In this document: piece after piece, positions 1 through 43,173 of the stretch
Layout: each line of letters starts with the position of its first letter
Position numbering within the stretch: position 1 is the stretch's first letter
From: Tepidanaerobacter syntrophicus
GTDB taxonomy: Bacteria > Bacillota > Thermosediminibacteria > Thermosediminibacterales > Tepidanaerobacteraceae
Length of the DNA stretch: 64,000 nucleotides
NCBI RefSeq assembly: GCF_001485475.2
Contig: NZ_DF976999.1
Span: 282,001-346,000 of the forward strand
Direction: 5' to 3'
The notes under the pieces: model-generated
What the model was told of the DNA's origin: nothing
The model's input: the letters and a program-made list of their open reading frames with translations, nothing else
Databases searched by the model: none
Position numbers and translations under genes: made by a program

Positions 1-604
1 TCGTATGCATTATATCTTTTATCTTTTTATCTCGAGGCGCAGCAATAAGTTCTCTAAGTGATAAAACTCCCTGTAAGTGCTTTTTGTTATCTACCACATA
101 GAGATAGTATATTGTTTCAGCCTCCTGGCCAAATTTTCTTGCATCTTCAATAGCCTGGTTTACAGTTTCATCTGCAAAAATATATACATAATCTGTAGTC
201 ATTAAGCCGCCGGCTGTATCTTCGGCCATTTTTAAAAGCTCTTTTAGTTCTTCATAATCTTCTTTGGGAAGCTTTGCCAGGAGATGTTCTGCCTGAGTTG
301 TAGGCATTTCTTGGAAAAGGTCTATAATTTCATCAACAGACATATTTTCCAGTATTTTTACTATCTCTTCCTCCGGCAGTTCTTCTAATATCTCAACACT
401 TTCAGATGGGTCAAGTTCCTCTAATACTTCTGCAATTTTGGAGCTGCTGAGCATTTGAAGAAATTGCTTTTTATTTCCGTTTTTTATTTCATCAAGTATT
501 TCGGCAATATCTGCCGGATGCAGATTTGCAAGTATTTTTTGGGCTTCTTCGCTTTTGTTAAGCACCAAATGTTTTAAAAGCACTATATCTTTTTTTGGCA
601 GCAT
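1..604 (-). CDS. mgtE: Magnesium transporter MgtE, N-terminal part (cut by window edge)
   Basis: The first 201 codons of an MgtE-family Mg2+ channel are visible; the membrane domain lies beyond base 1. It starts at ATG 604-602 (MLPKKDIVLL) with SD AGGAGG at 612-617, spacing 7. Residues about 20-130 form the acidic helical-repeat MgtE N domain (for example LDPSESVEILEELPEEE). A CBS domain begins near residue 145 with AGGLMTTDYV, the usual MgtE hinge. In the family, the N and CBS domains bind Mg2+ and close the pore when cytosolic Mg2+ is high. The M-box upstream supports the Mg2+ role independently. Expression appears to be controlled at two levels by the leader described next. Confidence 0.95.
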   Translation of the reverse strand, partial: MLPKKDIVLLKHLVLNKSEEAQKILANLHPADIAEILDEIKNGNKKQFLQMLSSSKIAEVLEELDPSESVEILEELPEEEIVKILENMSVDEIIDLFQEMPTTQAEHLLAKLPKEDYEELKELLKMAEDTAGGLMTTDYVYIFADETVNQAIEDARKFGQEAETIYYLYVVDNKKHLQGVLSLRELIAAPRDKKIKDIMHT

Positions 605-726
605 CACATTTCCTCCTTTTCTAGGAGGTCTGCCCGGCCTTAAGGGCGGTAGGGCACACCTCCCATGATATTATTTTGTTTTTCGGACTATGGCTAGGAT
701 CCGGGTCCACCTTACCGCCCCCTTAA
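602..726 (-). promoter_or_regulatory. Alternative hairpins controlling the mgtE SD
   Basis: Read on the minus strand, three stems compete. Stem A pairs TTAAGGGGGCGGTAAGG (726-710) with CCTACCGCCCTTAA (653-640) and would bury the leader-ORF SD. Stem B pairs GGAGGTGTGCCC (663-652) with GGGCAGACCTCC (635-624), 11 of 12 pairs. Stem C pairs CCTCCT (628-623) with the mgtE SD AGGAGG (617-612) across a 5-nt loop. A and B share bases 652-653 and would be knotted; B and C share the CCTCC arm. So B exposes the mgtE SD and C hides it. The pairings are seen in the sequence; the switching is inferred. Confidence 0.7.
621..710 (-). CDS. MgtL-like Mg2+-sensing leader peptide (29 aa)
   Basis: A short ORF lies between the M-box terminator and mgtE: GTG start at 710-708, SD AAGGGGG at 724-718 with 7-nt spacing, stop TAG at 623-621. 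The peptide begins MDPDPSHSPKNK and then runs on with no obvious motif to a C-terminal QTS. The start closely resembles the enterobacterial MgtL leader of mgtA (MEPDPTPLP in E. coli, from memory): acidic-Pro-acidic-Pro at positions 2-5, Ser/Thr at 6, Pro at 9, basic residues after. In MgtL such nascent chains destabilise the ribosome when Mg2+ is low. The stop codon lies in the loop of stem C, 4 nt before the mgtE SD, so the ribosome's fate can decide which hairpin forms. Function is inferred from similarity and context. Confidence 0.72.
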   Translation of the reverse strand: MDPDPSHSPKNKIISWEVCPTALKAGQTS

Positions 727-738
727 TTTTTTATATAT

Positions 739-768
739 AAAAACAAAAACCCTTCCGGACGAAAGGGT
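739..768 (-). terminator. Intrinsic terminator of the M-box riboswitch
   Basis: On the minus strand, ACCCTTTC (768-761) pairs with GAAGGGT and its neighbours (756-749), followed by a T-rich tract TTTTGTTTTT at 748-739. It follows the M-box aptamer directly and precedes the leader ORF, as expected for a transcription-terminating Mg2+ riboswitch expression platform. Confidence 0.85.
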
Positions 769-779
769 ACAACAAAATA

Positions 780-950
780 CTTTCCCCTCGTCATCGGTTT
801 TAGCACTGTGCGACTTTGGAATCTTGTTCCAGCCACATTAGATTTTACCTTAATCCGGCAAAACCTGCTAACCCATTGGTGTCTCTCGACATTTCCGGGC
901 AGTGGCCTGTATTCGCACAGGAGCCTCACCTAACGGGAAGTTAGATGAAT
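780..950 (-). promoter_or_regulatory. M-box (ykoK) magnesium riboswitch
   Basis: The minus strand contains the conserved M-box blocks in order: TTAGGTGAGGCTCCTGTGCG, CACTGCCCGGAAATGTC, ACACCAATGGGTTAGCAG, GTGGCTGGAACAAG, and CACAGTGCTAAAACCG near the 3' end. These match the Mg2+-binding M-box aptamer of Bacillus mgtE and related genes. A terminator hairpin follows and mgtE is downstream. High Mg2+ is expected to compact the aptamer and favour termination. Confidence 0.93.
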
Positions 951-970
951 TTTAATTTTGCATCCACCTT

Positions 971-1000
971 ATTTTAATATCTTTACAGGCGAGATGTCAA
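971..1000 (-). promoter_or_regulatory. Promoter of the mgtE leader
   Basis: TTGACA (1000-995), an 18-bp spacer and TAAAAT (976-971) read toward the M-box. It sits just after the HDAC-like gene, so mgtE is its own transcription unit. Confidence 0.75.
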
Positions 1001-42526: not shown

Positions 42527-42601
42527 TGGTGGGCGCTGTAAGGATTGAACTTACGACCCCTTCCGCGTCAAGGAAGTGCTCTCCCACTGAGCTAAGCGCC
42601 C
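42527..42601 (-). tRNA. tRNA-Val(GAC)
   Basis: Cloverleaf on the minus strand: acceptor GGGCGCT/AGCGCCC, anticodon stem CTTCC-TTGACGC-GGAAG with anticodon GAC, T loop TTCAATC, encoded CCA. Last of seven tRNAs; a second tRNA-Val (TAC) is first. Confidence 0.96.
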
Positions 42602-42630
42602 AAATTATCTGATAATATTATGATTTCGAA

Positions 42631-42719
42631 TGGTGCCGGGGACCGGAATCGAACCGGTACGGGGTTTAACTCCCGCAGGATTTTAAGTCCTGTGCGTCTG
42701 CCTGTTCCGCCACCCCGGC
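42631..42719 (-). tRNA. tRNA-Leu(TAA)
   Basis: Acceptor GCCGGGG/CCCCGGC, anticodon stem CAGGA-CTTAAAA-TCCTG with anticodon TAA, long variable arm CGGGAGTTAAACCCCGT typical of Leu, encoded CCA. Confidence 0.97.
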
Positions 42720-42730
42720 GTAATCTATTT

Positions 42731-42804
<74 letters not shown>

Positions 42805-42846
42805 AAAGTAAATCCTTAAAACAATTATACAATTATAATAGAAAAA

Positions 42847-42921
42847 TGGAGCGGAAGACGGGATTTGAACCCGCGACCCTCGCCTTGGCAAGGCGATGCT
42901 CTACCACTGAGCCACTTCCGC
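42847..42921 (-). tRNA. tRNA-Gly(GCC)
   Basis: Acceptor GCGGAAG/CTTCCGC, anticodon stem TCGCC-TTGCCAA-GGCGA (GCC), T arm GCGGGTTCAAATCCCGT, encoded CCA. It would be a ligand of the glyQS T-box (specifier GGC). Confidence 0.97.
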
Positions 42922-42928
42922 ACATCTA

Positions 42929-43004
<76 letters not shown>

Positions 43005-43012
43005 TAATATAA

Positions 43013-43090
43013 TGGCGACCCAGATGGGATTCGAACCCACGACCTCCAACGTGACAGGCTGGCGTTCTAAACCAACTGAACTACTGGGCC
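43013..43090 (-). tRNA. tRNA-Asp(GTC)
   Basis: Acceptor GGCCCAG/CTGGGTC, anticodon stem CCAGC-CTGTCAC-GTTGG (GTC), T arm GTGGGTTCGAATCCCAT, G73, encoded CCA. Confidence 0.96.
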
Positions 43091-43097
43091 GCATATT

Positions 43098-43173
43098 TGG
43101 TGGGCGAAACAGGGCTCGAACCTGTGACCCCGTGCGTGTAAGGCACGTGCTCTCCCAGCTGAGCTATCCGCCC
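43098..43173 (-). tRNA. tRNA-Val(TAC)
   Basis: Acceptor GGGCGGA/TTCGCCC, anticodon stem CGTGC-CTTACAC-GCACG (TAC), T arm ACAGGTTCGAGCCCTGT, encoded CCA. First tRNA, about 14 bases after a promoter -10. Confidence 0.97.

Follow-up and report, generated by a model that had tools for sequence, protein, structure and literature searches.

The window analysed here is a stretch of 64,000 nucleotides from Tepidanaerobacter syntrophicus (contig NZ_DF976999.1, positions 282,001 to 346,000). Its first 1,000 positions contain, on the minus strand, the 5' part of the Mg2+ transporter gene mgtE and a leader with an M-box riboswitch, an intrinsic terminator, and a short ORF. The features are listed below in the direction of transcription.

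971 to 1000, minus strand: predicted sigma-70-like promoter, TTGACA-18 nt-TAAAAT, 5' of the M-box (consensus scan, 11/12)
776 to 944, minus strand: M-box Mg2+ riboswitch aptamer RF00380, full-length (153.3 bits, E 4.8e-35, gathering threshold 44)
739 to 768, minus strand: intrinsic terminator hairpin (768-749) and U tract, the expression platform of the M-box (8-pair stem and T run)
718 to 724, minus strand: Shine-Dalgarno (SD) sequence of the leader ORF, AAGGGGG (anti-SD duplex -10.8 kcal/mol)
713 to 722, minus strand: segment A, GGGGGCGGTA, overlapping the leader SD, partner of A' (MFE folds; 94.4% of cells paired in 12 sequences)
621 to 710, minus strand: leader ORF of 29 codons with a GTG start, peptide MDPDPSHSPKNKIISWEVCPTALKAGQTS (ORF translation; kept in relatives)
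696 to 707, minus strand: DPDP codons GAC CCG GAT CCT, residues 2-5, proposed ribosome-destabilising motif (in 14 clade members, variation at third positions only, save Asp4 to Gly)
652 to 663, minus strand: segment R1, GGAGGTGTGCCC, anti-anti-SD within the leader ORF (R1:R2 helix in 12/12 clade members, whose sequences differ)
642 to 651, minus strand: segment A', TACCGCCCTT, partner of A (MFE folds; pairing in 12 sequences)
624 to 635, minus strand: segment R2, GGGCAGACCTCC, anti-SD at the 3' end of the leader ORF, with R1 or the mgtE SD as partner (folding)
612 to 617, minus strand: mgtE SD, AGGAGG, covered by CCTCCT of R2 (628-623) (R2:SD hairpin in 12/12 clade members)
1 to 607, minus strand: 5' part of mgtE, starting with GTG at 607 or ATG at 604 and running off the window (Pfam MgtE_N E 5.4e-25, CBS E 2.5e-26)

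The leader ORF begins MDPDPSHSPKNK, which is read as Met-Asp-Pro-Asp-Pro, and sits between the M-box with its terminator and mgtE. Its SD is spaced 7 nt from the GTG, and its stop codon TAG, which R2 overlaps, is followed by AAAA and then by the mgtE SD. A sequence-only reading of the same DNA had described this ORF, its SD, and a stop 4 nt before the mgtE SD, and the coordinates that it gave proved exact; the M-box and the mgtE gene between which it had placed the ORF were borne out by the Rfam and Pfam matches. The covariance score lies above the gathering threshold, and the locus shares with the M-box (ykoK leader) family the full aptamer, the intrinsic terminator, and a downstream mgtE. 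An SD with an MDPDP-type start occurs once in the entire 2.43-Mb genome, at the present locus. A repeat element as the source of the inverted repeats was ruled out because the genome has a single copy of the leader. Elsewhere, the window contains two T-box leaders (23612-23389 and 35156-34944, minus strand) and a cluster of seven tRNA genes (42530-43173, minus strand).

At high Mg2+, M-boxes favor the terminator, and at low Mg2+ transcription reads on; the M-box is a textbook single-input metal riboswitch. To our knowledge, the M-box in Firmicutes has been described as the sole regulator, in a family description without a downstream acidic leader ORF or SD switch. The MgtL peptide is acidic first and basic thereafter; it resembles the window peptide in its acidic-Pro-acidic-Pro alternation over residues 2-5, with basic residues coming next, and both are encoded by short SD-bearing ORFs in the leader of a Mg2+ importer gene. 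MgtL is the leader of mgtA in Escherichia coli and Salmonella (Chadani 2017, as related in PMC11282234 and PMC11552253), and ribosome drop-off is associated with its EPDP sequence (PMC11282234). The output of MgtL is Rho-dependent transcription termination, whereas the predicted output in the window is access to the mgtE SD, with transcription gated by the M-box.

To determine how often such ORFs accompany M-boxes, we took M-boxes by Rfam score from 61 relatives and 398 genomes of the phylum, together with named records found via the M-box 5' motif. Leaders with 100 nt or more between the M-box and the start of the main gene were treated as long (n = 189), and the uORF of each leader was picked solely for the strength of its SD, with the peptide disregarded. 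A strong-SD uORF was present in 171 of the 189 long leaders. Asp or Glu occupied residue 2 in 143 of these 171 uORFs (84%) versus 14 of 187 downstream genes (7%), and an acidic residue at positions 2-4 combined with Pro at positions 3-6 was found in 117 uORFs (68%) versus 2 downstream genes (1%). With duplicates removed (n = 150), the proportions were 81% for acidic residue 2 and 65% for acidic plus Pro. T-box leaders of the same genomes, taken as a control, had strong uORFs in 3 of 24 cases, none of them acidic.

The 58 M-box-bearing families of the phylum comprised 27 with an acidic-plus-Pro uORF, 10 more with an acidic one, 6 with a non-acidic one, 13 with none, and 2 that were unreadable; conservation of acidic/proline-starting uORFs thus extends beyond the clade, to 37 of the 58 families, and the tandem is missing in about a quarter. 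The sequence-only reading, which had known of no such tandem in Firmicutes, is corrected on this point: the design is widespread, and mycobacteria were already known to have an M-box with a translated uORF (PMC4974804 and PMC12810186). The uORF starts vary, with MDSGP in Desulfosporosinus and Pelosinus, MDSSPEPES in Alkalihalobacterium, the less acidic MDSPHSS in the Bacillus subtilis group, and MDDP, MDGDP, METDP, and MDADP across further families. Behind M-boxes of Actinomycetota, the starts were MDSEPG and MESDPG and, before PPE-like genes, MSPxDSP. No strong-SD uORF was found at the sampled M-box loci of Bacteroidales, Anaerolineae, and Ignatzschineria.

Searches independent of the M-box returned few matches. 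A strict pattern of SD, ATG, and DPDP codons had 2 matches in the 398 phylum genomes versus 1 for the reversed-pattern control, and both lie directly before mgtE, one of them with no detectable M-box. A looser, blind MDSGP-type pattern was uninformative (11 matches versus 13 for its reversed-pattern control). At one locus (L363; G099 contig 1, 368-395), a strong-SD MDPDP leader stands directly before mgtE without an Rfam M-box match in the locus.

The peptide start is under codon-level selection. Acidic residues make up 32% of codons 2-6 in frame, versus 5% and 3% in the other two frames and 7.7% at codons 12-20, and the net charge, -1.43 for residues 2-6, turns to +0.89 for residues 7-16. Asp, Pro, Ser, and Gly of the uORF starts are each written with several codons. 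The conservation check proposed in the sequence-only reading was run, and its claim survived: DPDP (or DPGP) is kept across the clade with synonymous third-position changes. Among 14 clade members, the third positions of the four codons show 2, 4, 2, and 2 different bases, and the only other change is Asp4 to Gly. The frame control, the multiple codon spellings, and the restriction of variation to third positions together indicate that selection acts on the peptide start. A chance ORF, or a codon pattern arising from RNA pairing alone, would fit the partial overlap of the ORF with conserved helices, but it does not account for third positions that vary while first and second positions are fixed, for the low out-of-frame control, or for the recurrence in 37 families with other codons and residues (MDSGP, MDADP, MDDP, and METDP); we consider it extremely unlikely.

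Constraint is limited to the first 5-7 residues, and uORF length and the C terminus are free to vary, which is the pattern expected of a cis-acting leader. The same pattern speaks against a trans-acting peptide, such as a small protein that works on the transporter; although the N terminus is conserved and such a role has been suggested for mycobacterial Rv1805A (PMC12810186), this explanation is very unlikely. A further candidate is an attenuator whose signal is not Mg2+ but the supply of proline, the modification of tRNA-Pro, or the activity of EF-P/ABCF. Ribosomes of B. subtilis stall on Asp-Pro, and these stalls are relieved by EF-P and YfmR (PMC11381351); moreover, Pro codons are enriched at uORF residues 3, 5, and 7. 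However, acidic residue 2 is the most constant (81%), Pro is absent in about one-third of the uORFs, and the ORF is associated with M-boxes and Mg2+ transporters. Such an attenuator is therefore unlikely, and proline/EF-P signals could instead be modulators of the same device.

A feature absent from the sequence-only reading is a conserved alternative RNA structure in which, according to folding, the position of the ribosome decides whether the mgtE SD is hidden or free. Five segments recur in the leaders, i.e., A (at the leader SD), R1, A', R2, and the gene SD. Folding was nearest-neighbor, at 37°C and pseudoknot-free, with A:A' and R1:R2 being crossing helices; masking of the first 27 nt represented a held ribosome, and masking past R1 represented a ribosome further on. 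For the window leader, the MFE fold of the free RNA contains A:A' and R2:SD, R1:R2 forms when the first 27 nt are masked, and R2:SD forms when the mask extends past R1. The predicted cost of opening the mgtE SD is 5.8 kcal/mol in the free RNA, 0.1 kcal/mol with the ribosome held at DPDP, and 10.8 kcal/mol with the ribosome further on.

This dependence of SD access on ribosome position in silico is found beyond the window. Among 133 leaders, the SD opening cost was 4.8 kcal/mol in the free state, 2.9 kcal/mol with a ribosome at about codon 5, and 7.5 kcal/mol further on, versus 3.4, 4.0, and 5.2 kcal/mol for shuffles in the free, held, and further-on states. The late-minus-abort difference in opening cost was 4.63 in leaders and 1.27 in shuffles (Wilcoxon p 3e-17), and a closed-open-closed course with steps of at least 2 kcal/mol was seen in 60/133 leaders versus 28/798 shuffles. 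Of 81 switching leaders, 75 have a uORF whose length would let a ribosome travel as far as the point of closure. Within the clade, R1:R2 and R2:SD are foldable in 12/12 members despite differing sequences. The A:A' helix has 94.4% of cells paired versus 35 to 69% when slid, with modest covariation (2 pairs with double changes). Some clade members depart from the model: R1:R2 is already formed in the lowest-energy free state of L006, L009, and L011, and R2:SD is retained in the lowest-energy held state of L017 and L025. The switch predicted for the B. subtilis group (L218) is weak (4.4, 3.9, and 4.8 kcal/mol in the free, held, and late states). A duplex-versus-shuffle test showed little; it omitted the last 20 nt ahead of the gene, which contain R2, and its shuffles retained the CCTCC composition.

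The arrangement has a counterpart in Salmonella mgtQ, where mutants revealed that acidic residues 2 and 5 lower mgtQ translation and thereby free the mgtB ribosome-binding site (RBS) (PMC8092293). Both systems have a short ORF with acidic residues within the first five codons (Asp2 and Asp4 in the window) and alternative stem-loops, one of which covers the transporter RBS; in the window, these are mutually exclusive helices set, in silico, by ribosome position. An abortive ribosome near the start favors the open form, as established experimentally for mgtQ (PMC8092293) and predicted here. The two differ in setting: mgtQ is intergenic in mgtC-mgtB, belongs to a P-type ATPase, is riboswitch-free, and occurs in gamma-proteobacteria, whereas the M-box leaders precede MgtE, CorA, and other genes, lie behind an M-box and terminator, and have a different helix order.

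The best explanation for these observations is probably that one mRNA carries two Mg2+ gates in series, the M-box and, after it, a translational one. At the present locus, high Mg2+ would lead to termination at the M-box terminator, and low Mg2+ would permit read-through. The read-through RNA would carry a leader ORF whose opening DPDP codons are presumably hard to translate. In the ribosome-free state, A:A' would cover the leader SD and R2 the mgtE SD, and mgtE would be off. A ribosome held at or dropping from the acidic/proline codons would occupy A, allowing R1:R2 to pair and exposing the mgtE SD, whereas a ribosome past R1 would let R2 close on that SD and switch mgtE off again. Low Mg2+ would weaken the ribosome, increase early abortion, and turn mgtE on; with sufficient Mg2+, ribosomes would run through the leader, R2 would shut the SD, and leftover read-through mRNA would be silent. 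We infer that the leader ORF is translated in Tepidanaerobacter, that ribosomes abort at DPDP, and that Mg2+ sets the rate of abortion. The sequence-only reading had proposed two Mg2+ sensors in series; the proposal is supported by the uORF conservation and the predicted SD switch, with Mg2+-dependent ribosome abortion as the presumed trigger of the second stage.

The same layout might also reflect positive translation coupling, in which translation of the uORF melts the hairpin around the mgtE SD, ribosomes reinitiate on mgtE, and the acidic start only tunes the flux. In keeping with this, uORFs stop near the main gene, some of those in Desulfosporosinus end exactly at its start codon, and R2 overlaps the stop in the window. 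Against coupling, the no-ribosome state is closed and, in most leaders, the state with the ribosome further on is still more closed; in addition, a strongly destabilising N terminus would cut mgtE expression at low Mg2+, which is the wrong direction for an importer, and R1 would be left without a role. As a general account, coupling is thus rather unlikely, although it, or reinitiation, may dominate in Desulfosporosinus-type uORFs that end at the start codon of the gene.

Known arrangements of an M-box and a uORF are also found in mycobacteria. A ribosome-protected uORF follows the M-box of mgtE in Mycobacterium abscessus (PMC4974804), and uORF2/Rv1805A, with a conserved Pro7 and a function given as unknown in the paper, follows the pe20 M-box in Mycobacterium tuberculosis (PMC12810186). 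These share with the present leaders an M-box followed by an N-terminally conserved uORF, which is translated there and inferred to be translated here; however, they lack an intrinsic terminator, were treated as a controlled gene product with involvement of Rho, and were not proposed to act by an acidic-leader mechanism. The window peptide has an acidic/Pro start similar to that of the pe20-like loci, but it has no Pro7, the remainder is unalignable, and the likeness may be convergent. Three PPE-like/pe20-like loci of Actinomycetota (L329, L330, and L331) have uORFs starting MSPGDSP, MSPDDSP, and MSPSDSP behind M-boxes, in agreement with the reported Pro7. The MgtE-like "small ORF" of PMC4072509 was considered as the same feature and set aside as a different thing. 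A search of the open-access literature, with most subscription papers and all of bioRxiv outside its scope, found no earlier report of an acidic leader behind an M-box in Firmicutes. Judged from sequence, the new element would be the M-box and an MgtL/mgtQ-type leader in series, the mycobacterial M-box uORFs being already known.

We lean slightly toward the broader view that acidic/proline leaders are a standard, old second Mg2+ sensor behind M-boxes throughout Firmicutes and part of Actinomycetota, including mycobacterial uORF2, and that they can also occur by themselves in front of mgtE where there is no M-box. If so, the fragility of ribosomes at low Mg2+ would serve cells generally as a Mg2+ gauge and would be no enterobacterial speciality, and Mg2+ sensing by nascent-peptide ribosome destabilisation would span distant phyla. 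Should most long M-box leaders hold a second, ribosome-based check, free Mg2+ (by the aptamer) and ribosome-bound Mg2+ (by the leader peptide) would be read serially from a single transcript. The orphan mycobacterial uORF2 would also gain a function, and dozens of natural sequences would become available for defining destabilising nascent chains.

Several loci show variant arrangements. M-boxes precede ABC-type permease genes in family f26 (L002 and L032; BPD_transp_1 in L002), with MDADP uORFs, and ABC-type-permease-like genes in family f18 (L012 and relatives; for L012 the similarity was judged by look, not by domain scan), where the uORF is lacking. In families f69 and f88 (L034, L061, L063, and L084), MDTGSS or MDGGGSS uORFs lie 170 to 265 nt before the main gene, farther than elsewhere, and the long gap may hold another control element. 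Two tandem M-boxes within about 320 nt occur in Pelosinus and similar genomes (L163 and L251), and three M-box motifs lie in one 8-kb stretch of Halalkalibacter alkaliphilus (L231).
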